A DNA stretch of 64,000 nucleotides from an uncultured Poribacteria bacterium (lineage in GTDB: Bacteria > Poribacteria > WGA-4E > WGA-3G), in the NCBI GenBank assembly GCA_951828515.1, contig OX639992.1, positions 4,814,217 through 4,878,216 of the forward strand. Direction: 5' to 3'. Position 1 is the first letter of the stretch, and each line of letters starts with the position of its first letter. The notes under the pieces are model-generated. The model did no database searches, was not told where the DNA came from, and was given only the letters and a program-made list of their open reading frames with translations. This document shows, one piece after another, positions 37,042 to 55,723 of this stretch. The position numbers and the translations under genes are program-made.

Positions 37042-37211
37042 AGTAAAACGAACCTTTTGTTTTGTTAGATGTCTAATGGAACAAGAAAACCATTTAGTTT
37101 GCCTCTATTCAATATTTTGCTTGAATAAGCGAAATTTGAGAGTTGAAAATCAGCACTATTGAACAATCGAATAGAGGCGTGTTCTTTATCCTGGCAGTTT
37201 GGAGAAGAAGT

Positions 37212-37832
37212 ATGTCCGTTGCAACCCTTACAGCTACTATGGAAACCTATTCGGAGATAAGCAAAACAGAAGAATTAGATCTCGCACAGGAACGTGAGAT
37301 TGTTTTGCGCTGTCAAAAAGGCGATGCCGATGCAATGGGAACCCTTGTGATTCAATATCAACACTGGGTCTACAACATCGCTTACGGTATGCTCGGTCAT
37401 CACCAAGACGCAGAAGATGTCGCACAAGATGCATTCCTCTCCGCATGGGAAAACATTGGGAAATTCCAATTCCGTTCCCGATTTTCCACATGGCTCTACC
37501 GCATTGTAAAAAATAAGTGTCTCAATCACATTGATCAGTACCAACGCCGAAAAACCGACCCAACGGAGATTGACGATTCACAACCGTGGGTACCCCTTGA
37601 TACAGCAACTCCTGAAGAAGCAGCATTACGTACCGAAGAGAAAGAAATCGTTCACGCAGCCCTCGCAAGGCTTAAGAACAGTCATAGAGAGATCCTGGTA
37701 CTGAGAGAATTGCGAGATCTGCCTTATGAAGAAATATCCGGAATCCTGGAATGCACACTCGGACGCGTTAAATCTCGGTTACATGAAGCCCGAAAAGCAC
37801 TAAAAAAAGAACTGGAGCGAGTCGAGTGGTAA
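37212..37832 (+). CDS. ECF RNA polymerase sigma factor
   Basis: 206 residues from ATG 37212 with GGAG seven bases upstream (an upstream TTG at 37143 is not needed). Sigma-2 (LVIQYQHWVYNIAYGMLG-HHQDAEDVAQDAFLSAWENI, then FSTWLYRIVKNKCLNH), a short linker, and sigma-4 (LKNSHREILVLRELRDLPYEEISGIL, with VKSRLHEARKALKK as recognition helix). This is a typical RpoE/SigW-type factor. It is followed after 30 bases by a zinc-finger anti-sigma gene and an RseB-like gene, a complete stress-response cassette. Confidence 0.95.
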   Translation: MSVATLTATMETYSEISKTEELDLAQEREIVLRCQKGDADAMGTLVIQYQHWVYNIAYGMLGHHQDAEDVAQDAFLSAWENIGKFQFRSRFSTWLYRIVKNKCLNHIDQYQRRKTDPTEIDDSQPWVPLDTATPEEAALRTEEKEIVHAALARLKNSHREILVLRELRDLPYEEISGILECTLGRVKSRLHEARKALKKELERVEW

Positions 37833-37862
37833 CATCTTTTACCACGAGCCTCGATTGAAAAC

Positions 37863-38636
37863 ATGAACCATCAAAAAATCCGAGAGGAATTATCAGCTTA
37901 TTTAGATAAAGAATTAAGCCCGAGCAGGCATAAGCAGATTGAAGCACATCTGCGTTCCTGCGACGAGTGTTCCGATATGCTGGCAGCGTTCCAAACGAAC
38001 CGTCAGATGATCACAAATATCGTGCACCCAGTGCCATCAACCCTCAAGGATGGAGTGATGGCAAAAATACACACGCAGTTTCAAGATGAACTCTCCGCCT
38101 ATTTGGACAACGAATTGGCACCCGAAATGCGCGATCGGATGGAAGCACATCTTCACGCTTGCAGTGAATGTTCCGACATGCTCACAGCGTTCCGCCAAAA
38201 TCGCGAACGCGTCAAAACGATTGAGCAGCCTGCGCCGTTGTCCATTGAAAGCGCAGTGATGGCGAAAATACGCCAGCAAGCACCACAAACACGCAAAGAG
38301 GAATCTACTCACACCGGATGGATACCTGATATAAAACGATGGATGCCCGACCTTGGACGCTGGTTTTTCCGTCCCGTTACCGCAGGCGCGACCGGTGTTC
38401 TGACGCTCGTCCTGATTTTGGGGGCACTCTACTTTTATCCGACTGGATCGCAATACGATGAGACTCTCGATTTCTACTTCGGGATCCACACCGAACAATT
38501 AGTAGATAACACACTTGATTCAAACATCGGTATCTCCTTCAGCACAACACCTTCGGAAGACGCTCTATCCACAGAAACCGCTGACGATACCGAAGAACTG
38601 TTCCTTGACCTCTATTTGGAAAATGTAGGGAATTGA
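37863..38636 (+). CDS. Anti-sigma factor with two tandem zf-HC2 domains
   Basis: 257 residues. Two ZAS (anti-sigma zinc-finger) units in tandem: His29-x3-Cys33-x2-Cys36 (EAHLRSCDECSDML) and His96-x3-Cys100-x2-Cys103 (EAHLHACSECSDML). They are so similar, each with a following VMAKI segment, that internal duplication is clear. One membrane helix (about 172-192) and an acidic outer domain follow. Most RsrW/ChrR-like members have one ZAS. It overlaps the RseB-like gene frame at 38633-38636. It should hold the upstream ECF factor inactive at the membrane. Confidence 0.92.
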   Translation: MNHQKIREELSAYLDKELSPSRHKQIEAHLRSCDECSDMLAAFQTNRQMITNIVHPVPSTLKDGVMAKIHTQFQDELSAYLDNELAPEMRDRMEAHLHACSECSDMLTAFRQNRERVKTIEQPAPLSIESAVMAKIRQQAPQTRKEESTHTGWIPDIKRWMPDLGRWFFRPVTAGATGVLTLVLILGALYFYPTGSQYDETLDFYFGIHTEQLVDNTLDSNIGISFSTTPSEDALSTETADDTEELFLDLYLENVGN

Positions 38637-38656
38637 ATTCCCCGACAGGTGAACCC

Positions 38657-39751
38657 ATGCAAACGCATAAGTATCTAATTCATCACAAGGACTTACGACG
38701 CAAGCGCAATTTCGTCTGGTATATGGTCATAGCCCTTTTGTTGTGGGGACCTCACACGCTTTTTGCCGACATCAGTACCCTTGAACGCATCGTAGAAGCG
38801 GAAAGTAACGTCAGTTACATCGGAATTCGTTTGAAGACGTTCATTTCGCCAAGAGGCACCCGCACCTTTGAAGCACTCGTCATCCATAAATCGCCTGAGA
38901 TTTTCTATGAGAAGAAACTCTCTGTGGTGGGCGAGCGTAAATCGTTTGAAGATTCGCGGGGCGAGGATCGCGGAGACAACCGGAGAAGAGACCGGGACGA
39001 GGATCGCAGGAACGGTCGAGAAAGAACGCGGGAAGAAAACAAATGGCGGCAGGCACGAACTTTATTTTCGCAAAAAGATGTTGAACTGATCGCACAAAAC
39101 TACAATTTGGAAAAATCGCCGTCTACAGAAGAAATAGCGAATTACGAAACGGATCTGCTAACGGTTACCCCCAAATTCGCTGGAAGACCCACACTCCGGG
39201 TTTTCTTTGCGCGCGAAAATGGGGTTATCCTGCGGGCAGAGGCACTCGATCCAGAAGGTGTCCTTCGGGCAATGTCCGTTTATACCCGAATTAGCTTCGA
39301 TGCTGAGGCAGTGGAACGCAAATGGAAAACTTTTCAAAAAGAGATAGAACCCAAACCCCAACGCAGTTATTCAATCTCGCTGGCAGATGGAGAAAAGATT
39401 CTTCAAACGAAACCGATTCAGCCTGAATATTTGCCCCCAGGCTTTCAGCTGCAGGATGTTCACAGCATCAAAGATAGAGAGCACTCAATTCATCTCATCT
39501 ACACAGACGGCTTTTTGGATTTCTCAATATTTGAAACAACGGACAAGCGGGCGCGTCGTGGCAGTGAAAGACACAGAGGATCAGATGTAATTGAAATCGC
39601 TGGCACGCATGTCCATAAACGCCAGCGCGGACCGACGTATACCTTCAGCTGGTCCAGTTCGGATATACACTTTTTCCTGTTCGGTGAGATGCCTGCTCCA
39701 GAAATGCAGAAAGTGGTAGAATCCATTATTCACAAAGCAAAGGAAAAATAG
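38657..39751 (+). CDS. MucB/RseB-like envelope-stress regulator
   Basis: 364 residues from ATG 38657 (earlier TTG at 38633 overlaps the anti-sigma stop). Signal or anchor segment (VWYMVIALLLWGPHTLFA). The N-terminal domain (about 35-240) shows the RseB/LolA-like beta half-barrel (SYIGIRLKTFISPRGTRTFEALVIH, IFYEKKLSVVG). The C-terminal domain has YLPPGFQLQDVHSI, HLIYTDGFLDFSIFE, typical of RseB. A strikingly charged insertion (about residues 97-125, dominated by Arg/Asp/Glu) separates strands. RseB guards the anti-sigma factor from proteolysis; here it fits the two upstream genes. Confidence 0.82.
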   Translation: MQTHKYLIHHKDLRRKRNFVWYMVIALLLWGPHTLFADISTLERIVEAESNVSYIGIRLKTFISPRGTRTFEALVIHKSPEIFYEKKLSVVGERKSFEDSRGEDRGDNRRRDRDEDRRNGRERTREENKWRQARTLFSQKDVELIAQNYNLEKSPSTEEIANYETDLLTVTPKFAGRPTLRVFFARENGVILRAEALDPEGVLRAMSVYTRISFDAEAVERKWKTFQKEIEPKPQRSYSISLADGEKILQTKPIQPEYLPPGFQLQDVHSIKDREHSIHLIYTDGFLDFSIFETTDKRARRGSERHRGSDVIEIAGTHVHKRQRGPTYTFSWSSSDIHFFLFGEMPAPEMQKVVESIIHKAKEK

Positions 39752-41871: not shown

Positions 41872-43095
41872 ATGCAAAAACGATTACATACAATATGGCT
41901 GGCTGTATTTCTGCTATTATTGCATTCGACAGTATCCGTTGCCTACACAGCAGAACTCAAAATTGAAAAGATACTCACCAAAACAGACGGTTTGGCATCC
42001 AATACGGTGCTCACCGTTTTCGAGGACAACCATGGCACGATGTGGTTCGGAACGACCGATGGCATCACCCGTTATGACGGAGAAAATTTTCGGACCTTCA
42101 CAACAGAAGATGGATTATCACGTAACACGACAGGTCTTATTTTTCAAGACCGACATGGAATGCTATGGTTTGCGAATGGTGTCGTCTTAAGTACCTTGGA
42201 AAGAGGGAAGTCAATAGACATGTCGTACATGGCAATGCCTTTGAGTGAACTTGCAAAAGAATTAGAAAACGAAATTCCGACAGAAACACTGACCCCTACT
42301 CCACCAAGAGGTGTCAGTCGTTATGATGGAGATATGTTCAGAATCTTTACGCCTGCCGATGGTCTCCTCCGAGATAACGTCAAGGACATACTTGAGGACA
42401 AAACAGGAATGCTTTGGTTCGCGACAGCGTCTGGGGTGAATCGCTACGAGGCCGAAAGTTTTACCGGTATGGCCTTCAATGGTCCCATGGGGATGGATAT
42501 ATTACCCGATTGGTGGAATCAAGTTACGACAATTACACAGGATACAGCAGGAAACTTCTGGTTTGGGAGTACTGCCGGCATCACCTACTACAATGTCCAA
42601 ACGTCTGATTTCCGATACTTTGATATAAATTTAATTTCCTTCCAGGAGATAGAGAAGCCGCGGACTGGAAATGTGACAGCCCTGCAGTTTGATGCCGGCG
42701 ATAATCTCTGGATTTGTCGAGAAGGGATGGGTGATGAAAGTAGCGGTATTCGTCGATACAATGGCGAAGTATTAGTTTCCTTCCCACAAAGTGAAGCACT
42801 TCCGATGAATACTGTTCACAACATCCTATTAGATACCAGCGGCAACCTGTGGTTTGCGGGTACCAAAAAGCTACCGCCGACGCTGCATGACACCGAGGAG
42901 CGTCTCACCATGACTTATGCTGAAGCTGGCGTTGGTGTAAGTGTCTATAACGGTGAGACCTTTCAAAACTTTGACACGAACGACGGTCTACCGAGCAACA
43001 CGGTCTGGTCTGTCTTTGAGGATAGCCGCGGCAAACTCTGGTTCGCCACGGATGCTGGTGCCGCAGTCGGCGTTTATCTACCCTCTGAAAAATAG
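41872..43095 (+). CDS. Secreted Reg_prop beta-propeller protein, copy 1
   Basis: 407 residues from ATG 41872 (AAGGAG upstream). Signal peptide then repeated two-component-regulator-propeller blades with the consensus L-x-S-N-T-V-x-x-x-x-E-D-x-x-G-x-[ML]-W-F-[AG]-T-x-x-G-[IV]-x-[RV]-Y, for example at the N-terminus and the last blade SNTVWSVFEDSRGKLWFAT. In typical regulators a propeller is followed by Y_Y_Y and kinase domains; here the protein simply ends after the blade, so it is a free-standing secreted propeller. It has a close paralogue at 47491-48717, and the last 90 bases plus the 3' flank are almost identical. A Ycf48-like gene follows 93 bases later. Confidence 0.85.
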   Translation: MQKRLHTIWLAVFLLLLHSTVSVAYTAELKIEKILTKTDGLASNTVLTVFEDNHGTMWFGTTDGITRYDGENFRTFTTEDGLSRNTTGLIFQDRHGMLWFANGVVLSTLERGKSIDMSYMAMPLSELAKELENEIPTETLTPTPPRGVSRYDGDMFRIFTPADGLLRDNVKDILEDKTGMLWFATASGVNRYEAESFTGMAFNGPMGMDILPDWWNQVTTITQDTAGNFWFGSTAGITYYNVQTSDFRYFDINLISFQEIEKPRTGNVTALQFDAGDNLWICREGMGDESSGIRRYNGEVLVSFPQSEALPMNTVHNILLDTSGNLWFAGTKKLPPTLHDTEERLTMTYAEAGVGVSVYNGETFQNFDTNDGLPSNTVWSVFEDSRGKLWFATDAGAAVGVYLPSEK

Positions 43096-43188
43096 CTGTC
43101 GGCTGTCAACTGTCGCTGTCTGTAAAAAAGAAACGATTCTCAAAACTTTGCGTCTTTGCGGGTTGCTCTACTAAAGGAGACAAAACAA

Positions 43189-46100
43189 ATGAAAAAGATT
43201 CTTCAACACATCACTTGCTTTTGGATGGCGATTCTCTTTGGAGTCCCTCTCTTGTTCATCGGTTGTGTGAAAAAGGAAATCACGCGTAAAGCGGATTGGG
43301 AAACACATTTTATGGATGTCCATTTTGTCGATGCCAAACACGGATGGATCGTCGGGCACCAAGGATGGATTCTCCATACCTCTGATGCGGGGATGAGTTG
43401 GCAAAAACAGACAGTCAATACCAATGAAGACTTCAAAGCTGTCTACTTTACAAATCTTCGAAACGGTTGGGCAGTCGGCGATAAGGGAATAATTGCCACG
43501 ACCGACGATGGCGGACAGCATTGGAGCATAAGAAAAAGTGATATTTCTGCGCTATTCTATGATGTCTATTTTACCGACTCGAAGACGGGATGGATCGCTG
43601 GTCAAGATGGACTCCTATACACAGAAAACGGCGGCAAAACATGGCATCACCAGGAAACCAGCGAGTTTCAACTCAAAGGGATCTATTTTGTAAATAAGAA
43701 TCGTGGGTGGGTCGTCGGTGATTACGACCGAATCTTTGTTACCACCGATGGTAGTGATGCATGGCGGAGACAGGAGAATCTCGTTAAAGATGATGCCACG
43801 ACAACCGTCTTCAACTTCCACACCGTATTCTTTGTTTCGCCTTCTAAGGGATGGTGTGGTGGCACAGATGGCAGCGTCCTTCATACCACCAATGGCGGAA
43901 CAGAATGGAAAACTCAGACCAGTCGACTGCCGCCGATTTATGGACATGTACGCCCTACTGTGAACAGTTTCGACTTCCTTAACGAAGATTACGGTCTCGT
44001 CGTCGCACAAGGCGGATTTATGAATCGGACAGAGGATGGCGGAAACAACTGGCGATGGGTAGAAAGTCCGACAAAGAACGATCTGACAGGTGTTCAACTC
44101 GTAAGTCCGAAACAGGCATGGGCAGTCGGTATCAATGGTACCATCTTGCGCTCAAACGATGGTGGAGTAACATGGGAAATGGTCAGTGGTACCACTGCCA
44201 ATACCCTGCAAAGTGTCGCATTTGCGGATGCGAACCGCGCAGTCGCCGTCGGAGAGAAGGGCACAATCACCATGAGTCAAGACAGTGGCAAAACTTGGAC
44301 CGACATTAAGATGGACACTTGGCATCGCATCCGTAATTTATCATTTGTTACTGACAAAGAAGGCTGGGCGGTTGGCGATGGTGGGCTCATTCTTCATACG
44401 ACCGATGCCGGTCAGACGTGGGAACAGCAAACCAGCGGGTGGTGGTATACCCTGAATGCCCTCCATTTCATTGATCCTCAGAAAGGGTGGGTCGTTGGAG
44501 ATTTAGGCACTGTTCTTCACACTGCCGACGGTGGTAGAACGTGGATACAACAAGCACCCCGCTACTTTCACGAGATGATTAAAGGAATCTTTTTCCTCAA
44601 CGAGAAAGAAGGGTGGGTCGTTGGCTGGCCCGGTGTTGTGTTTCATACTATAGATGGGGGGCGGACATGGCAACGGCAGAATAGCAACACTTACAACGAA
44701 CTCTACGCTGCGTACTTTATAGATCGGCATATTGGTTGGGTCGTCGGACAATTCGGCGAGATTTTACATACCTTCGATGGCGGAAAAACGTGGAAATTTC
44801 AGCGGAGTCGGACGCGGGCGAATCTGAACAAGGTCTACTTCGCCGATGCGAATCACGGGTTAATTGTTGGAGATGAAGGTGTTATTTTGACGACCATCAA
44901 CGGCGGTATAACATGGGAGTTACAGAACAGTGGCACGTCCAATGATCTCTATAGTTTCTCACTTTCCCCAGACGGTATTCTTGCTGTCGGTGAAGACGGT
45001 ATCGCAATGCGTTACGCTGTGGATACCGAGAAGTTTATCGTTGAACTGCCACCAACTGTGCAGGAGGCCGAGACAGATGTACAAACGCCTGAGGCAATTG
45101 AATCGGATTGGGAGATTATTCAGATCGGTACGCAGCAGACATATTTCACCGACACCTATTTTTTATCCCCGCACCGCGGATGGACAGTCGGACATGACGG
45201 TGTAATTTTCCATACGACAGATGGCGGCACAACGTGGCAACGGCAAAAAAGCGGTGTATCCGATGATTTGCATCGAATCGTCTTCATTGATGAGCAACAC
45301 GGTTGGATTGGGGGCAATGGGGTCCTCCTGCGAACTGAAAATGGTGGTGAGACATGGCATGTAATCCGTGAAGGGTTGCAAGATATCTACTTAGTCTCGG
45401 CGATGTATTTCATTAATCCGAAAGTCGGTTGGCTCGGTGTCAATGATGGACAAACCCTATACACGAATGATGGTGGCAAAACCTTCCGATTGCAGAAAAC
45501 TAATCTTGGGTGGCCCCCTATCACCGACTTACACTTTATCAACATGAAAGAGGGCTGGGCAGTCACACCGCATCTGATGAAAGGGGGGTACATTCTGCAT
45601 ACCGTAGACGGTGGCGACTACTGGCAGGTTCAAGCCAGAACGCATAAATATGGTGTCGGTGTCCGTTTTATGGATAAGGCGTCTGGTTGGGTGGTATTCG
45701 AGGATGGAACATCTCTTACAACAAGCGACGGTGGCACGACTTGGAAACAGGCTTCAAGGCAAATGCCCGATGGCGTTCGACTCAGTGCCGTGAAATTCCG
45801 AAATCATACAGAAGCTTGGGGTATTGTGAACCAGAAACGGCTTGTCACGACCAGAAATCGAGGGACAACTTGGGAAACAGTGGAAGGTTCATTTGGGAGT
45901 CCATCTGCCACTACTCATAATAAAAATTGGATTCACAAAATGGCAAAAGAACAATCCTCAGCTGCGTTCAATTTGACGAACGCCTACATCCTTGAAGATG
46001 GACACGGCTGGGGAGTCGGCGCAATTGTCGCATCACCTCGCATCGGGTATAACGTCGCCATCGGGGATGACGATACGCATCGAGTACGAGATACTATAGG

Positions 46101-47013
46101 TCAAATTTATAGCACAACAGATTTTGGTAAGAACTGGCACCATCAACTTGGTGAACAAAGCGGTACCTTCCGTGATGTGCTGTTTCTTGATGAACAGCAC
46201 GGTTGGATTGCAGGCAACAACGGTATCTTGCTTTCCACAGAGGATGCCGGAAAGACTTGGAAAGCTTTAGACAGCGGCACCACGCAACGCATCGTTGATA
46301 TCCACTTTATGAGTCTTCAACCCAAATGGGGATGGGCGATGTTACGCGACGCAAACCTCCTTTACACACAGGATGGTTTGCAGTGGACAACACAAAACAC
46401 ACACGAGCAAATCACACCAGCGGATCCGTTTGCCATAAATGATGTTGCCTTCGGTAAGTTTTCTGAAGGGTGGGCTGTGGGAGAGGCTGGGGCGATTATA
46501 CACAATCCAGATGGCGGCTTGATTTGGAAACAGCAACCGAGTTCAACGGGCAAGAATCTCACAGGTGTTGATATGAAATTTGCACCCCTCGGATGGGCGG
46601 TCGGCACCAACGGTGTCATCCAGCGAACAATCAACAGGGGTAAATATTGGAAATTCCACGAAACCGACACCGGCTATGACCTTTACGATGTCTCATTTAT
46701 CAGTCAGCGGAAAGGATGGGCAGTCGGACGTGCCGGGATTATCCTATCGACCTCAGACGGCGGGTTTACGTGGGAGTCAAAGTTCAGCAATGTATCGGAA
46801 ACACTTTACGATATTCTACCACTCTCTGAAAAGGAACTCTACGCCGTTGGTGCTTCTGGCACTATCATCCATTCAACAGATGGCGGCGAAACGTGGAAAC
46901 CCGAATATGCCGGGATCAATAAGAACCTGTATGCAATCACGCAGGTCAAAGATGGAGGTTCCCTCTGGGTGGTTGGACAATTAGGTGTTGTGATGCGGCA
47001 CCCCATGCAATAA
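43189..47013 (+). CDS. Giant Ycf48-like repeat lipoprotein, copy 1
   Basis: 1,274 residues from ATG 43189 (AAAGGAG upstream). Lipoprotein signal with lipobox LFIGC. By eye I count 28 units of about 40-45 residues with the pattern [IV]-x-F-x-[DN]-x-x-x-G-W-x-V-G-x-x-G-x-[IL]-x-x-T-x-[DN]-G-G-x-T-W, i.e. Ycf48/BNR Asp-box blades. Unit 14 is degenerate and is followed by a Pro/Glu/Val-rich linker (about residues 610-650), dividing the protein into 14 + 14. Since Ycf48 is seven-bladed, four propellers are plausible. Ycf48 itself assists photosystem II assembly, but bacterial homologues are generally uncharacterised surface or periplasmic proteins. It is paralogous to 48797-52636. Confidence 0.85.
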   Translation: MKKILQHITCFWMAILFGVPLLFIGCVKKEITRKADWETHFMDVHFVDAKHGWIVGHQGWILHTSDAGMSWQKQTVNTNEDFKAVYFTNLRNGWAVGDKGIIATTDDGGQHWSIRKSDISALFYDVYFTDSKTGWIAGQDGLLYTENGGKTWHHQETSEFQLKGIYFVNKNRGWVVGDYDRIFVTTDGSDAWRRQENLVKDDATTTVFNFHTVFFVSPSKGWCGGTDGSVLHTTNGGTEWKTQTSRLPPIYGHVRPTVNSFDFLNEDYGLVVAQGGFMNRTEDGGNNWRWVESPTKNDLTGVQLVSPKQAWAVGINGTILRSNDGGVTWEMVSGTTANTLQSVAFADANRAVAVGEKGTITMSQDSGKTWTDIKMDTWHRIRNLSFVTDKEGWAVGDGGLILHTTDAGQTWEQQTSGWWYTLNALHFIDPQKGWVVGDLGTVLHTADGGRTWIQQAPRYFHEMIKGIFFLNEKEGWVVGWPGVVFHTIDGGRTWQRQNSNTYNELYAAYFIDRHIGWVVGQFGEILHTFDGGKTWKFQRSRTRANLNKVYFADANHGLIVGDEGVILTTINGGITWELQNSGTSNDLYSFSLSPDGILAVGEDGIAMRYAVDTEKFIVELPPTVQEAETDVQTPEAIESDWEIIQIGTQQTYFTDTYFLSPHRGWTVGHDGVIFHTTDGGTTWQRQKSGVSDDLHRIVFIDEQHGWIGGNGVLLRTENGGETWHVIREGLQDIYLVSAMYFINPKVGWLGVNDGQTLYTNDGGKTFRLQKTNLGWPPITDLHFINMKEGWAVTPHLMKGGYILHTVDGGDYWQVQARTHKYGVGVRFMDKASGWVVFEDGTSLTTSDGGTTWKQASRQMPDGVRLSAVKFRNHTEAWGIVNQKRLVTTRNRGTTWETVEGSFGSPSATTHNKNWIHKMAKEQSSAAFNLTNAYILEDGHGWGVGAIVASPRIGYNVAIGDDDTHRVRDTIGQIYSTTDFGKNWHHQLGEQSGTFRDVLFLDEQHGWIAGNNGILLSTEDAGKTWKALDSGTTQRIVDIHFMSLQPKWGWAMLRDANLLYTQDGLQWTTQNTHEQITPADPFAINDVAFGKFSEGWAVGEAGAIIHNPDGGLIWKQQPSSTGKNLTGVDMKFAPLGWAVGTNGVIQRTINRGKYWKFHETDTGYDLYDVSFISQRKGWAVGRAGIILSTSDGGFTWESKFSNVSETLYDILPLSEKELYAVGASGTIIHSTDGGETWKPEYAGINKNLYAITQVKDGGSLWVVGQLGVVMRHPMQ

Positions 47014-47067
47014 TGAAGTTTAGAACTCAGAGAGCATATCAAGTTTGGACATCTTGAGGTACAATGA

Positions 47068-47466
47068 ATGTTAACAACACTGATCCGTCGAGAACTCCTT
47101 GATAATCTGATGACGTTCCGATTCGCTGCATCTGTCTTCATTGTGATATTGCTGGTGGTCTCGAATACCGTGGTGCTCATCAAGGATTACGAGCAGCAGT
47201 TGGCAAGCTACAATACCGCTCTCAAAGTGCATCAGAGTAAATTAGAGGAACTGAAAGCCTATTCAGGCTATCAGTTGTACGTAGATCGTCCACCCAATCC
47301 GTTGCGCATTTTCAATATCGGATTTGATAAGCGGTTGGGAAACCAAGTTAGAGTCTACCACGCCTTCGTGCCAACGCTTTGGGATGCACAGAGACATGGA
47401 TCAAACAATCCTTTCCTTCTTTCTGAAAATAAGGCAATCTTTCAAGGTCTCAATTACGTCACCTAA
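47068..47466 (+). pseudogene. Truncated ABC-2 permease (N-terminal fragment)
   Basis: 132 codons with GAGG before the ATG. Its opening MLTTLIRRELLDNLMTFRF and first membrane helix match the start of the full permease at 54308 (MLMTLIQKEIMHHVLSVRF), followed by the same kind of extracytoplasmic loop. It stops after about 130 residues of a 450-500-residue family, having lost all further membrane helices, with an unrelated tail LLSENKAIFQGLNYVT. The break lies 24 bases before the second Reg_prop gene, so the duplication that made the second module may have cut it. Confidence 0.75.
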
Positions 47467-47490
47467 ATCAAAAATCAAAGGAGTTTCTTT

Positions 47491-48717
47491 ATGCGGAAAC
47501 AATTGACTGCAATATGGTTTGTTGTATTTTTATCATTAAATTGGGGCGTATCCATTCCGGATGCAGCAGAACTCAAAATCGAAAAAATCCTCACCGAAAC
47601 CGACGGTTTGGCATCTAACACGGTGCTCACCGTTTTCGAGGACAACCATGGCACGATGTGGTTCGGAACGACCGATGGCATCACCCGTTACGACGGAAAG
47701 AACTTCCAAACCTTCACAACAGAGGATGGATTAGGGCAGAACACAATAGGGCTTATCTTTGAAGAACGGCAAGGGAAGCTCTGGTTCGCTGGGGGTGTGC
47801 TTTCCGATGTCTCGAAAAGAGGAAAGCCTATGGACATGTCTTGGATGGAAACGCCATTAAGTGAACTCGATATCACGCCGCATGATGAACCACCAGCAGG
47901 AACAAGAAAACCCATCCGATTAAAAGGTGTGAGTCGCTACGACGGCGAAAAGTTCAGAATCTTTACGACCGCCGACGGGCTTGCTGATGATACCGTTACG
48001 GATATCTTTGAAGACGAAACTGGTACGCTTTGGTTCGCAACAGGGTTCGGTGTGAGTCAATACGACGGTAAAACGTTCAACAGCATTGTTATGAACGGAC
48101 CGATGGGAATGAACATATTACCCGAATCGTGGAATCGAATCACAGCAATTGCCCAGGATACAGCAGGAAATTTTTGGTTTGGAAGCGAAGCTGGCATTAC
48201 CTACTACAACCTCAAAACGTCCGGTTTCCGTTACTTCGGGGTTAACTCGGATTTCAGTCCCTTCCAAGAGATGGGGGAAGCAGGAACCGCTTACATAACA
48301 GATCTACAGTTCGATACCAAGGAAAACCTCTGGATAAGCCAAGATGACACAGACGAGGAATATGTCGGCATTCGTCGATACAACGGCAAAAAACTGACGA
48401 CTTTCCCACAAAGTAAAGCACTTCCGATGAATAGCGTTAACAATATCATGCAAGATAGCCGCGGTAACCTTTGGTTTACGGGTGTTAAGAAACTACCGCC
48501 GAAGATGAATGAAACTGAGGACAGTATTAGCATGACTTTTCCTGAAGTTGAATCCGGCGTAAGTGTCTACAATGGCAAATCCTTCCAAAACTTCAATACA
48601 GACGACGGTCTACCGAGTAACCGCGTCTGGTCAGTATTTGAGGACAGCCGCGGCAAACTCTGGTTCGCTACAGATGCTGGTGCCGCAGTTGGCGTTTATC
48701 TACCCTCTGAAAAATAG
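47491..48717 (+). CDS. Secreted Reg_prop beta-propeller protein, copy 2
   Basis: 408 residues, AAAGGAG upstream of ATG 47491. Same layout as copy 1: signal peptide (AIWFVVFLSLNWGVSIPDA), then propeller blades beginning LKIEKILTETDGLASNTVL, and the identical ending VYLPSEK. The N- and C-terminal blades are nearly identical to copy 1 at DNA level, while the centre differs more (for example HDEPPAGTRKPIRLKG), a pattern expected from duplication with partial gene conversion. No output domain. A Ycf48-like gene follows 79 bases later. Confidence 0.85.
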   Translation: MRKQLTAIWFVVFLSLNWGVSIPDAAELKIEKILTETDGLASNTVLTVFEDNHGTMWFGTTDGITRYDGKNFQTFTTEDGLGQNTIGLIFEERQGKLWFAGGVLSDVSKRGKPMDMSWMETPLSELDITPHDEPPAGTRKPIRLKGVSRYDGEKFRIFTTADGLADDTVTDIFEDETGTLWFATGFGVSQYDGKTFNSIVMNGPMGMNILPESWNRITAIAQDTAGNFWFGSEAGITYYNLKTSGFRYFGVNSDFSPFQEMGEAGTAYITDLQFDTKENLWISQDDTDEEYVGIRRYNGKKLTTFPQSKALPMNSVNNIMQDSRGNLWFTGVKKLPPKMNETEDSISMTFPEVESGVSVYNGKSFQNFNTDDGLPSNRVWSVFEDSRGKLWFATDAGAAVGVYLPSEK

Positions 48718-48796
48718 CTGTCGGCTGTCCCTAAAGAAAGAAACGCCACTGAAACATGTGCATCTTTGCTGATTGCTACTAAAGGAGACAAAACAG

Positions 48797-51700
48797 ATGA
48801 AAAAGATTCTTCAAAACATCAATTGCTTTTGGATGATGACTCTTTTTGGAATCCCTTTCTTGTTCATCGGTTGTGTAAAAAAGGAGATTACCCGCAAAGC
48901 CGATTGGGAAACCCATTTCCAAGGTCTCTATTTTGTAGATGCCAAGCACGGATGGATCGTCGGACATCAAGGGTGGATCCTCCATACGGCTGACGGGGGG
49001 ACAAGTTGGGAGAAACAGAGCGTCAATACGACCGAAGATTTCAAATCAGTTTATTTCACGAACCTCCGTAACGGTTGGGCAGTTGGGGACAAAGGCTTAA
49101 TTGCCACAACAGACGATGGCGGACGGCATTGGACGCTACAAGCAAGTGGAAGTCACGCCTTGCTTTTGGATGTCTTTTTCGTCAATTCAAAGCTTGGATG
49201 GATTGTCGGACGCGATGGCGCGCTTCAGACACAAAATGGTGGAAAAACGTGGCATCATCAGCCGGTCAGCGAGTTTGGACTTGGTGCCACCTGGTTCGTG
49301 AGCAAACACCGCGGCTGGGCGGTTGGCGACTATAATCGAAGTTTTTTGACAAATGATGGGGGACAGACTTGGCACAGACAGAGCAGTTTGGTGAGAGAAG
49401 ACAAAATGCTTTTCAACGTCCAGACAGTCCGTTTTATCGGTGATTCTAAGGGATGGTGCGGTGGTACAGATGGGACCATTTTTCACACGACCACAGGTGG
49501 TACACACTGGCAGCAACAGAGGAGTCGATTTCCGATAGTGATGGGGCATATCGCTCCAACTATTAGGGACATTGATTTTATGAACGATGACCGCGGTGTG
49601 GTGGTCGCTCAGGGTGGGTTTATCAACCGAACCGAAGATGGTGGAGACAATTGGCAATTGGTGGAAAGTCCGACCAAGAATGACTTAACCGGTGTTCAAT
49701 TTACAAGTCCTAAAGAGGTATGGGCGGTCGGTTTAAATGGGACGCTACTACACTCGACGGATGGGGGGACCACGTGGGACATGAAAAGTGGCACGACGGC
49801 AAACGATCTGAACAGCGTTGCGTTCGCAGACGCAGACCGTGCAGTTGCTGTTGGTGAACACGGTGCTATCACGATGAGCCAGGACGGTGGTAAAACTTGG
49901 ACAGACATAGATATGGAGGTCTGGCATCGGATTCGGAACCTCTCTTTTGCCACTGACAGGGAAGGCTGGGCGGTTGGCGATGGCGGGCTTATCCTTCACA
50001 CAACCGATGCAGGTCAAACGTGGGAACGGCAAACCAGTGGATGGTGGTATACCCTCAATGCCCTTCATTTCATCAATGCAAAAAAGGGCTGGGTCGTCGG
50101 AGATTTAGGCACAGTGCTTCATACGGTGGATGGTGGAGAAACGTGGATACAACAAGCACCACGCTACTTTCATGAGATGATTAAAGGGATCTTTTTTCTT
50201 AACGAGAAAGAAGGATGGGTGGTGGGGTGGCCCGGTGTTATTTTTCAGACTAAGGATGGCGGAATCACCTGGAAACGACAGAATAGCAACAGCTACAACG
50301 AACTCTATGCCGCCTACTTCGTCGACAGACATACCGGCTGGGTGGTCGGACAGTTCGGCGAGATTTTACATACGCTCGATGGCGGAAAAACGTGGAAATT
50401 TCAACGCAGCCGAACACAGGCAAATCTTAACAAAGTCTATTTTGCGGATGCAAATCACGGGTTAATTGTCGGCGATGACGGTGTGATTCTAACCACCACC
50501 AATGGCGGTGTAACGTGGGAGTTGCAGAAAAGCGGCACATCCAATGATCTTTACAGTTTCTCGCTTTCCCCCGACGGTATTCTTGCTGTCGGTGAGGGCG
50601 GGATTGCAATGCGTTATTCTGTGGATACAGAGGAGTTTATTGTCGAATTGCCGCCTGTGGCGCAAGACGTGGAATCGGAGACAAAACCGACTGAACCAAT
50701 TGAATATTATTGGGAAGTTGTTCGTCAAGGAAACTGGCGATCTGCTTTCACTGATATCTTTTTCCTGTCGGCACAGCATGGATGGGCAGTCGGAGGTGGC
50801 GGCATCATTTTGCATACTGTTGATGGTGGCAAAACGTGGCACCTCCAACAAAGTGGTGTCACAAAGGGTTTGCAACGGATTCTCTTTATTGATAAAAACT
50901 ACGGTTGGGTTACCGGTCAAGGTGTGTTATTACGAACCGAAAACGGCGGTGAGACGTGGCAAGCGATCCATAAAGGACTACAAAACTTCCGAAGTATCCG
51001 GGCGATCTACTTCATCAACCCCAAGGAGGGGTGGATCGGAGTCGATAAAGGGCAAATTTTACGCACCAGCGACGGCGGCAAAACCTTCCGCTTGCAGAAA
51101 ACCGGAACAACAAATCAACCGATCGCGGACCTACATTTTGTTAATAGCAGAGAGGGATGGGCAGTTGTGCCGCAACGGCGAGATGGTGGATTGATTCTGC
51201 ACACCGTTGATGGCGGTAATTATTGGCAAATTCAAGCCAGAACTCATCAACGAGGGGTCGGTGTCCATTTTTCAAATGCCCAATCGGGGTGGGTGGTCAT
51301 GGAAGATGGGAGTTCGCTACTCACGACAGATCGTGGGGGGACATGGAAACAAACCCCGATAATAGATTTCGGACTCCGGCTCTCTACCGTGAAATTCCGC
51401 AATCACACCGAAGCGTGGGGATGTGTTGAGGGAGAAGCAATTTTCACAACGCAAAACCGGGGCAAAAGCTGGGAAACAGTAAGTTTTTCACTCGGAACGG
51501 AAGCTGCAAACACCGAGGCACAAAGTTGGATAGAACAGATGGTAGAGGAGCGTCCCTTCAATTTGAGGTCCCAAATTACCAACGCACATTTCTTGTCGAA
51601 TGGCAAAGGTTGGGCAGTCGGCGGGGTGCTGGTTCAAGAGGGAACTTCGGATGGGAAGGATTTTGATAGTCTTAATAAAACGCAAAAGTCTGGCGGTCAG

Positions 51701-52636
51701 ATTTATTATACTACAGATGGGGGGAAGACTTGGGAGCATCAATTTGGTGAATCGCTTGATGATTTACGCGATGTCCTGTTTCTTGATGAACAGCGAGGTT
51801 GGGTTGTCGGAGATAATGGGGTCCTGTTGTCAACAGCAGATGGCGGAGAAAGTTGGAAGCGTTTGAAGAGTGGTACCACTCAACGCATTGTTGATGTCCA
51901 CTTTGTAAGTCGGAATCCTGAATGGGGCTGGGCGATGGCACGCGATGGGACTCTGCTTTACACCGTTGACGGTGAGGATTGGTCAGCGAACTTGCCAGAG
52001 GGGCTTGCAAGCGACATTCTGGATGCACCGGAACGTCCTGCGGGTGCTGCGACTTCCATAAACGATGTCGCCTTTGGGGCGTTTTCTGAGGGATGGGCTG
52101 TCGGTCAGAGTGGCGAGATTTTCCACAATCGGGATGGTGGTTTGATGTGGACACTTCAGCGCACCTCAACCGGAAAGGAACTCATAGGGATCGATATGAA
52201 ATTCGCACCCCTTGGTTGGGCGGTTGGTGCCAACGGTGTGATCCAACGAACTGTCAACGGCGGTGACTATTGGAAATTTCACGAGACCGATACCGGCTAT
52301 GATCTCTATGCGGTGTCGTTTATTACCAAACGGAAAGGATGGGCAACTGGACGTGGTGGGATTCTTTTGTACACCTCTGACGGTGGATTTACTTGGACAT
52401 CCAAGTTGAGTCGTCTGCCAGAATCCCTGTACGATATTTTGGCACTCTCTGAACAGGAACTCTACGCTGTCGGTGCCGCTGGAACCATTATTCATTCAAC
52501 AGATGGCGGCGAAACATGGGAACAGGAGCATACCGGCGTAGACAGCGACCTGTATACTATCACGCGGGTCAAAGACGGAAATACATTGTGGGTCGTTGGG
52601 CAAGGCGGCGTTGTGCTGCGTCGTCCGAAACGTTGA
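48797..52636 (+). CDS. Giant Ycf48-like repeat lipoprotein, copy 2
   Basis: 1,279 residues from ATG 48797, same GGAGACAAAACA leader and same lipobox as copy 1 (FLFIGC). The repeat plan is the same: about 14 Ycf48-type units, a linker (VELPPVAQDVESETKPTEP), then about 14 more; most units align one-to-one with copy 1, with divergent surface loops. Asp-box Ser/Thr-x-[DN]-G-G-x-T-W is kept in nearly all blades. Clearly exported and lipid-anchored; its ligand is unknown. Gene order Reg_prop-Ycf48 is kept in both modules. Confidence 0.85.
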   Translation: MKKILQNINCFWMMTLFGIPFLFIGCVKKEITRKADWETHFQGLYFVDAKHGWIVGHQGWILHTADGGTSWEKQSVNTTEDFKSVYFTNLRNGWAVGDKGLIATTDDGGRHWTLQASGSHALLLDVFFVNSKLGWIVGRDGALQTQNGGKTWHHQPVSEFGLGATWFVSKHRGWAVGDYNRSFLTNDGGQTWHRQSSLVREDKMLFNVQTVRFIGDSKGWCGGTDGTIFHTTTGGTHWQQQRSRFPIVMGHIAPTIRDIDFMNDDRGVVVAQGGFINRTEDGGDNWQLVESPTKNDLTGVQFTSPKEVWAVGLNGTLLHSTDGGTTWDMKSGTTANDLNSVAFADADRAVAVGEHGAITMSQDGGKTWTDIDMEVWHRIRNLSFATDREGWAVGDGGLILHTTDAGQTWERQTSGWWYTLNALHFINAKKGWVVGDLGTVLHTVDGGETWIQQAPRYFHEMIKGIFFLNEKEGWVVGWPGVIFQTKDGGITWKRQNSNSYNELYAAYFVDRHTGWVVGQFGEILHTLDGGKTWKFQRSRTQANLNKVYFADANHGLIVGDDGVILTTTNGGVTWELQKSGTSNDLYSFSLSPDGILAVGEGGIAMRYSVDTEEFIVELPPVAQDVESETKPTEPIEYYWEVVRQGNWRSAFTDIFFLSAQHGWAVGGGGIILHTVDGGKTWHLQQSGVTKGLQRILFIDKNYGWVTGQGVLLRTENGGETWQAIHKGLQNFRSIRAIYFINPKEGWIGVDKGQILRTSDGGKTFRLQKTGTTNQPIADLHFVNSREGWAVVPQRRDGGLILHTVDGGNYWQIQARTHQRGVGVHFSNAQSGWVVMEDGSSLLTTDRGGTWKQTPIIDFGLRLSTVKFRNHTEAWGCVEGEAIFTTQNRGKSWETVSFSLGTEAANTEAQSWIEQMVEERPFNLRSQITNAHFLSNGKGWAVGGVLVQEGTSDGKDFDSLNKTQKSGGQIYYTTDGGKTWEHQFGESLDDLRDVLFLDEQRGWVVGDNGVLLSTADGGESWKRLKSGTTQRIVDVHFVSRNPEWGWAMARDGTLLYTVDGEDWSANLPEGLASDILDAPERPAGAATSINDVAFGAFSEGWAVGQSGEIFHNRDGGLMWTLQRTSTGKELIGIDMKFAPLGWAVGANGVIQRTVNGGDYWKFHETDTGYDLYAVSFITKRKGWATGRGGILLYTSDGGFTWTSKLSRLPESLYDILALSEQELYAVGAAGTIIHSTDGGETWEQEHTGVDSDLYTITRVKDGNTLWVVGQGGVVLRRPKR

Positions 52637-54307: not shown

Positions 54308-55723
54308 ATGTTAATGACATTGATTCAAAAAGAGATTATGCATCATGTTCTGAGCGTCCGTTTCGTCGCGCTCCTTGTGATGTGTCTATTGCTTGTTCCG
54401 TTGACCCTCTCTATCAATCATCGAAACTATCGTCAAAACCTGTTGGATTACCAAGAATCCGTTAAACTGACAAACATCGAAGAAAAGATCATAAACCCGA
54501 GTATGCCACTGGAACCGGAGCTGGAAGTCTCTAAACTCTTCCTCAAACCGACACCTTTGAGCGTTTTCGCAAATGGATTGGGTGACGCACTGCCAAGTTA
54601 TCTTGGGATGACGCGTAATGGGATTACCCAAGGTCCACCGGCGACCGTTTCCGACTCTATTGCCCACCTTTTAGGGCATCTCGATTTTCTGTTTGTCGTC
54701 GGCACCGTCTTCAGTCTGCTTGCGCTGTTGTTTACCTTCGATGCAGTTGCTGGGGAAAGAGAAGCAGGCACGTTGCGGATTAATTTAGCGAACGCCCTCC
54801 CACGCGACCTCTTTTTATGGAGCAAACTGATTGGCGGATACATCGTGTTCGTGGTGCCGTTTTTGGTAGCGTTTCTCTTCGGTTTACTCATCATCGTCTG
54901 GCAAGGGTTTCCCCTGGGTGAGCCAGAGGTTTTCCCACGAGTCATGAGTCTGATGCTCGCCGCGCTGCTCTACATCGGCGTATTTTTCGCCATTGGCACG
55001 GTGATTTCCACCTATTTAGATAACGCCAAAACAGCACTCATCGTCGCCTTCACTGTCTGGGTATTCGCTGTGCTGATTGTGCCACGCATCGGGTTTGTCA
55101 CGGCGAAATTAATCGTACCCACAAAAACCTCGCAGAGCGTTTATCTCGAAAAGACTGCACTCCGCGAGAATTTCAATGCTGAACTTGAAGAAAGAAAAAA
55201 GGAGATACACCAAGAATTCTGGAAAGATCGTCCGAATGCTTCCTTTGATGACCAGTTCGCAGCAGGAGAGGAGATCGATAAACTGGTGCAACCGCTTGAA
55301 GGCGCATATAAGCAGAAATTCGCGGATCGCACCGACCAGATAGATAGGAACTATCAGCGCGAGAAAGCGCGACAGGAAGAGGTCGGCGAGACCCTCTCAC
55401 GAATCACACCGACCTCTTCGTTAATTTATCTCACCACGAACTTGACACAGACCGGAAAGATTAAAAAACACAACTACTTTGAAGCAGCTGATCGTTATTA
55501 TGGCGCACTTCACGCGGATCTGTTCAGTAAAATAGTAGATCACGCTTCCGTAAGAAGTTACCATCCGGATGATCTCGACACAATTGCGCAGCCACCCCCT
55601 ATAGCAGTCCCTTCTTTAGATGAAACGTTAAGGCACTCACTGGTGGATGTGCTCTTCCTATGCTTCTTTGCGGTGGCGTTGACGACCTTGGCGTTTTTGA
55701 AATTCTTCCGTTCCGATATTTGA
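54308..55723 (+). CDS. ABC-2 type permease (DUF3526-like), intact
   Basis: 471 residues, AAAGGGAG upstream. Membrane helix 1 (LLVMCLLLVPLTLSIN), an outer loop with SVFANGLGDALPSY, then FLFVVGTVFSLLALLFTFDAVAGERE-AGTLR, the family's typical second-helix motif, further helices (GGYIVFVVPFLVAFLFGLLI, MLAALLYIGVFFAIGTVIS, ALIVAFTVWVFAVLIVPRI), a long soluble loop (about 275-430) and a last helix (LFLCFFAVALTTLAFLKFF). No ATPase gene nearby, though ABC-2 exporters need one. Related to the truncated copy at 47068. Confidence 0.88.
   Translation: MLMTLIQKEIMHHVLSVRFVALLVMCLLLVPLTLSINHRNYRQNLLDYQESVKLTNIEEKIINPSMPLEPELEVSKLFLKPTPLSVFANGLGDALPSYLGMTRNGITQGPPATVSDSIAHLLGHLDFLFVVGTVFSLLALLFTFDAVAGEREAGTLRINLANALPRDLFLWSKLIGGYIVFVVPFLVAFLFGLLIIVWQGFPLGEPEVFPRVMSLMLAALLYIGVFFAIGTVISTYLDNAKTALIVAFTVWVFAVLIVPRIGFVTAKLIVPTKTSQSVYLEKTALRENFNAELEERKKEIHQEFWKDRPNASFDDQFAAGEEIDKLVQPLEGAYKQKFADRTDQIDRNYQREKARQEEVGETLSRITPTSSLIYLTTNLTQTGKIKKHNYFEAADRYYGALHADLFSKIVDHASVRSYHPDDLDTIAQPPPIAVPSLDETLRHSLVDVLFLCFFAVALTTLAFLKFFRSDI

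Follow-up and report, generated by a model that had tools for sequence, protein, structure and literature searches.

In a single-contig, 5.85-Mb genome of Ca. Poribacteria, we found two copies of what appears to be a two-gene envelope operon, confined as a pair to one poribacterial genus, living in association with sponges, whose first gene would encode a soluble exported Reg_prop propeller (RegProp) and whose second gene would encode a giant Ycf48/Asp-box propeller lipoprotein; in some relatives, the same propeller forms the C-terminal part of an extracytoplasmic-function (ECF) sigma factor. We tentatively propose, with a confidence just short of even, that the pair is an envelope sensing or ligand-capture unit with the capacity to act through an ECF sigma factor. 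Within the window, by which we mean the whole 64,000-nucleotide stretch analysed, the two pairs lie co-directionally at positions 41872–52636, in the following setting:

37143–39751, + strand: ECF sigma, zf-HC2 anti-sigma and RseB-like genes, which adjoin the pair in many, not all, relatives (neighbourhood only)
41872–43095, + strand: RegProp-1, putative exported seven-bladed Reg_prop propeller, 407 aa, ATG start, signal peptide, no output domain
43174–43191, + strand: leader AAAGGAGACAAAACA, including the start codon of lipoprotein-1, read directly; orthologues carry the same leader
43189–47013, + strand: lipoprotein-1, Ycf48/Asp-box propeller lipoprotein, 1274 aa, lipobox LFIGC, N-terminal half modelled with 14 blades
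47068–47466, + strand: ABC-2 permease stump, homologous over 47068–47418 (117 codons), joined by a deletion to the RegProp-2 leader
47491–48717, + strand: RegProp-2, putative exported single seven-bladed Reg_prop propeller, 408 aa
48797–52636, + strand: lipoprotein-2, Ycf48/Asp-box propeller lipoprotein, 1279 aa, 91% identical to the orthologue in G026
54308–55723, + strand: ABC-2 permease (ABC2_membrane_2/DUF3526), often 3′ of the pair in relatives (neighbourhood only)

The initial annotation had described two pairs with the same gene order, leader and lipobox, and this was confirmed, the leader AAAGGAGACAAAACA and the lipobox LFIGC followed by V being common to both window copies. For RegProp-1 a longer open reading frame from 41815 is the less likely start, and a GGAGG-like site lies 5′ of 41872. 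PADLOC gave no defence-system match at the locus. The window holds the free propeller form only, with neither a fusion of an ECF sigma factor and a transmembrane helix (ECF-TM) nor a remnant of one; a candidate ECF gene remnant 5′ of RegProp-1 was rejected, the similarity there being to intergenic DNA of relatives. A LamG gene often stands directly 5′ of the pair in relatives and is absent from many loci, the window included. Elsewhere, exported LamG and TolB-like proteins (L100:11937-12983, L109:9065-9817 and L090:4935-5894) share a short motif at the C terminus, resembling VSPxxKxxTxWxxIK, that may serve in sorting or anchoring.

Both RegProps are about 408 aa long, have a hydrophobic signal peptide at the N terminus, carry seven W-F blade motifs and match Pfam Reg_prop (E values of 1.4e-28 and 5.5e-34). 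Pfam searches revealed no Y_Y_Y, HisKA, response regulator or other output domain in either protein, nor any Y_Y_Y or HisKA match adjoining the genes; together with the export signals in both products, this upheld the earlier view that the RegProps lack an output domain and are partnered by exported lipoproteins. An AlphaFold2 model of RegProp-2 (pLDDT 85.5) is a propeller whose closest structural match was the periplasmic domain of BT3049 (Z 31.5, rmsd 2.5, 285 residues aligned), followed by BT4663 (Z 29.6, rmsd 3.0, 293 aligned) and BT4673 (Z 27.5, rmsd 2.9, 283 aligned), all at 19–24% identity; these values exceed the background of Z about 25 that is common to many WD40 propellers and that PorZ (24.9) shares. 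With Z scores of 27–31, Reg_prop repeats and an exported seven-bladed propeller, RegProp resembles the hybrid two-component system (HTCS) sensors BT4663, BT3049 and BT4673 of Bacteroides thetaiotaomicron; however, it lacks their second propeller, Y_Y_Y domain, kinase and response regulator, and the only output domain found in its relatives is an ECF sigma factor. By its sensor-like predicted fold, RegProp is probably a soluble exported seven-bladed propeller of the glycan-sensor type. BT4663 is described, in a passage of PMC5121618, as holding disaccharides at the propeller entry faces. The propeller fold is adhesive and sensor-like, yet unspecific to signalling, and likeness of fold is no proof of function.

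The partner lipoproteins match Pfam PSII_BNR/Ycf48 with E values of 8e-130 and 4e-125, and Ycf48 is also their best NCBIfam match (432.9 bits for the Pfam and 439.5 bits for the NCBIfam model, each summed over 15 stretches), with Asp-box/Ycf48 blades spaced by about 41 residues over much of the protein. Ycf48 itself, about 300 aa long, forms one propeller and functions in photosystem II assembly in photosynthetic organisms. The lipoproteins share its Asp-box/BNR blades but differ in size, being 1274–1279 aa long and having no fewer than 14 blades in their N-terminal half instead of one propeller. The model of the N-terminal half of lipoprotein-1 (pLDDT 88.4) contains 14 blades, counted from strands, and its fold matched GH74 xyloglucanases (top), tandem WD proteins and Ycf48. 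The lipobox cysteine is residue 26 in the window copies and residue 23–26 in all copies with the start covered; the search pattern, after PROSITE PS00013, picked an earlier cysteine in the protein at L097:14058, where FTGC is present at residue 26.

Comparison across the genus revealed an operon-like linkage of the two genes. Both were adjacent and co-directional in 27 of 38 genomes and neither was found in the remaining 11, the genus-specific lipoprotein (at least 62% identical) occurring in the same 27 as RegProp and in none of the other 11; the point probability of this co-occurrence, calculated without phylogeny, is 8e-10, a figure that is indicative only because the genomes are related. 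Where both ends are covered, the distance from the RegProp or ECF–RegProp stop to the lipoprotein start is –4 to 172 bp, the two reading frames overlapping in G016. This does not hold for G004, whose lipoprotein gene is missing its 5′ end, or for the second lipoprotein copy of G032. Among 45 other genomes of the class, matches occurred only in G063 and, as a contig-edge fragment, in G071, whose contig carries genes up to 97–100% identical to those of the genus itself and may be mis-binned. G063, from a sister genus, has RegProp beside a LamG gene, without the lipoprotein; in that locus (L156:11492-12592) the Reg_prop gene is flanked on one side by the LamG gene and on the other by a gene whose product is FG-GAP-like and has ankyrin repeats. 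A larger lipoprotein paralogue of about 1340–1400 aa, 52–59% identical within the taxonomic order, is present in almost all class genomes checked (L089:8632-12813, also L102 and L103); the loci read place it next to VWA or DUF4159 genes, and none of the three neighbourhoods read contained a Reg_prop gene. Recurrence across lineages had been put forward in the initial annotation as the sign of a genuine system: the pair does recur within one genus (27 genomes with both genes, 11 with neither), but not beyond it, given the class-wide paralogue without Reg_prop and the RegProp of G063 without lipoprotein. Between near relatives, dN/dS was 0.15–0.22 for the free RegProp and 0.25–0.29 for the fused form; these ratios show RegProp to be under purifying selection.

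Seven genomes (G001, G005, G007, G009, G017, G026 and G032) carry this propeller as the C-terminal portion of an ECF sigma factor. These fusions carry Sigma70_r2 and r4 (ECF sigma2 and sigma4), then one hydrophobic helix at about residues 221–239 and then the Reg_prop propeller, with no zinc-finger anti-sigma segment matched; the sigma part of the G026 fusion contains an in-frame TAA. In G005, G007 and G009 the fusion occupies the position of the free RegProp, 22–23 bp ahead of a lipoprotein gene, and in G001, G017, G026 and G032 it is followed within 17–146 bp by a free RegProp and then by the lipoprotein. Assembly chimeras are unlikely, because G005 is a single contig and G017 consists of three. 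The fusion junction coincides with the end of the signal peptide, as expected for an exported domain behind a transmembrane helix, which supports an extracytoplasmic position of the fused propeller. Free Reg_prop genes are commoner than fusions, and the RegProp tree requires at least two switches between free and fused forms. Because of these fusions, we conclude that this propeller family does have an output domain, a sigma factor rather than a kinase. ECF sigma factors bound to the membrane or bearing a propeller are already known, namely ECF52 (SCO4117), IutY and ECF57 (PMC8999054) and the planctomycete WD40-ECF proteins (PMC8567305). The fusions resemble ECF52 and IutY in that the ECF sigma factor is extended at its C terminus by a segment with a transmembrane helix, and ECF57 in that it is joined to a propeller; they differ from all three in combining the helix with a Reg_prop propeller, and the window differs in having the free propeller only. 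In the open-access literature (most subscription papers lie outside this scope), we found no description of the combination of ECF, transmembrane helix and Reg_prop, nor any paper joining Poribacteria with extracytoplasmic-function sigma factors.

The sigma part of the fusions belongs to a larger repertoire. A search with the ECF-TM part gave at least 28–39 scored matches in every genome of the genus, and up to 114 first-look candidates. In the genome containing the window, 63 places match Sigma70_r2, of which about 36 lie in frames longer than 450 aa (manual count); the helix near residue 220 is kept in 16 of 18 such frames read, L163 and L168 being without it. The outer domains in the frames scanned include BNR/sortilin, leucine-rich repeat, Kelch, C-type lectin and M16-like domains. 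Single-pass sigma factors of this design, noted in this genome and at L159–L172, occur by the dozen throughout the genus. Because this chassis has expanded genus-wide, Reg_prop may have been recruited as a fusion partner by chance. Another Reg_prop protein of the same genome (L091:11039-14908, 1289 aa) has a phosphatase-like end, SpoIIE-type by eye, and this genome therefore seems to have several Reg_prop outputs.

The two pairs of the window had been described as duplicated locally, which comparison with relatives did not sustain. DNA repeats at a spacing of about 5.6 kb run through both modules at 69–83% identity, and the copies are 65% (RegProps) and 68–69% (lipoproteins) identical as proteins. 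However, RegProp-1 and RegProp-2 fall into different supported clades; in the lipoprotein tree, lipoprotein-1 groups with G028, G008, G024, G031, G011 and G022 (SH-aLRT only) and lipoprotein-2 with G026 at 91% identity. RegProp-1 and RegProp-2 differ by a dS of 0.95, whereas RegProp-2 and its closest counterparts in other species are separated by 0.67 and 0.52. Because of the trees and dS, we regard the window pairs as old paralogues that predate the species, and a recent local tandem duplication is ruled out. The gene ends are near-identical, as the initial annotation had it, in that a 71-nt exact run lies near the RegProp 5′ end and the 3′ end matches together with its flank, but of these only the first calls for the gene conversion invoked there. 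Among 203 pairs of comparable overall identity none equals the 71-nt run, which points to a single short tract of conversion; the matching 3′ end with its flank recurs, wholly or partly, in the orthologues at L098, L124, L130 and L133, so this part needs no conversion and was simply inherited. Between the pairs lies a gene fragment that had been overlooked: the open reading frame at 47068–47466 opens with 117 codons from the start of an ABC-2 permease gene (Pfam ABC2_membrane_2), with 94% identity to the intact proteins of 501 aa encoded by G017 and G001. Permease homology in the DNA ends at about 47418, and homology to the RegProp leader of G033 starts two bases later. This joint is a clean deletion or recombination scar, and the present layout is therefore partly a product of loss.

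Taken as a sensing or ligand-capture unit, the pair would work as follows. The membrane-anchored lipoprotein and the small propeller would contact each other and capture or present a ligand, which might be a glycan of the host or the matrix, and the propeller–lipoprotein complex would feed a sensing pathway that ends in an ECF sigma factor. With the free propeller, as in the window, a signalling step would reach a separately encoded sigma factor in trans; with the fused propeller of relatives, output would be in cis, through a single-pass membrane sigma factor encoded directly before the lipoprotein. A more specific version, which we consider possible but doubtful, takes the Reg_prop propeller as one of many swappable outer domains in a large family of one-component, single-pass ECF receptors of Poribacteria, and the lipoprotein as a dedicated co-receptor for the propeller, whether free or fused.

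The pair might instead serve surface assembly, its propellers maturing, modifying or anchoring other surface proteins as PorZ and Ycf48 do and not acting as sensors, which we think unlikely. The best NCBIfam model is PorZ for the RegProps and Ycf48 for the lipoprotein, although the PorZ scores of 55.7 and 59.6 bits are far below the curated cut-off of 260. PorZ, of type IX secretion, is likewise an exported, kinase-free, Reg_prop-like propeller protein of the cell surface (PMC5121618), and many poribacterial proteins with Por-type C-terminal sorting domains have been reported, together with an absence of structural Por genes and Por machinery (PMC3909097). By contrast, RegProp has one propeller and no C-terminal sorting domain, whereas PorZ combines such a domain with two propellers, the RegProp fold is nearer the HTCS sensors than PorZ, and the sigma-factor fusions point to signalling.

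Less probable still is ligand capture without signalling, on which view the pair would bind glycans or proteins at the surface in adhesion or scavenging, and the propeller would occasionally be put to a different use in the ECF fusions. The LamG-domain gene so often directly upstream, the GH74 xyloglucanases at the top of the fold matches of the lipoprotein half, and the multiplication and divergence of the copies fit such a role. So does the faster divergence of the pair than of neighbouring cytoplasmic-type genes: median identity to the window copy is 71% for RegProp and 72% for the lipoprotein, closer to the 67% of the anti-sigma and 60% of the RseB-like protein than to the 90–95% of the neighbouring SDR, DLH, sigma and ThuA genes, a rough contrast in that the medians mix orthologues and paralogues of the pair. 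However, LamG is missing from many loci, and in three genomes the fused form occupies the exact place of the free form before the lipoprotein. That a sequencing error or recent mutation has severed the Reg_prop genes from hybrid kinases, of which they would be the sensor halves, is rejected as almost certainly wrong by the genus-wide comparison, since no point supports it, the same short gene with the same end precedes the lipoprotein in independent genomes including single-contig ones, the free copies show dN/dS of 0.15–0.22, and no Y_Y_Y or HisKA was matched in or beside the gene.

For the sensing unit that we favour, the fusions in relatives turn an otherwise anonymous surface pair into a testable hypothesis. 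A sensor type known from Bacteroides hybrid kinases occurs in those relatives on ECF sigma factors, in a genus with dozens of membrane-spanning sigma factors whose outer domains are swapped, and if the proposal is true it would suggest how uncultured sponge symbionts read their surroundings. Were the co-receptor version to hold, a major group of sponge symbionts would carry a sensor kit built on sigma factors instead of hybrid kinases.
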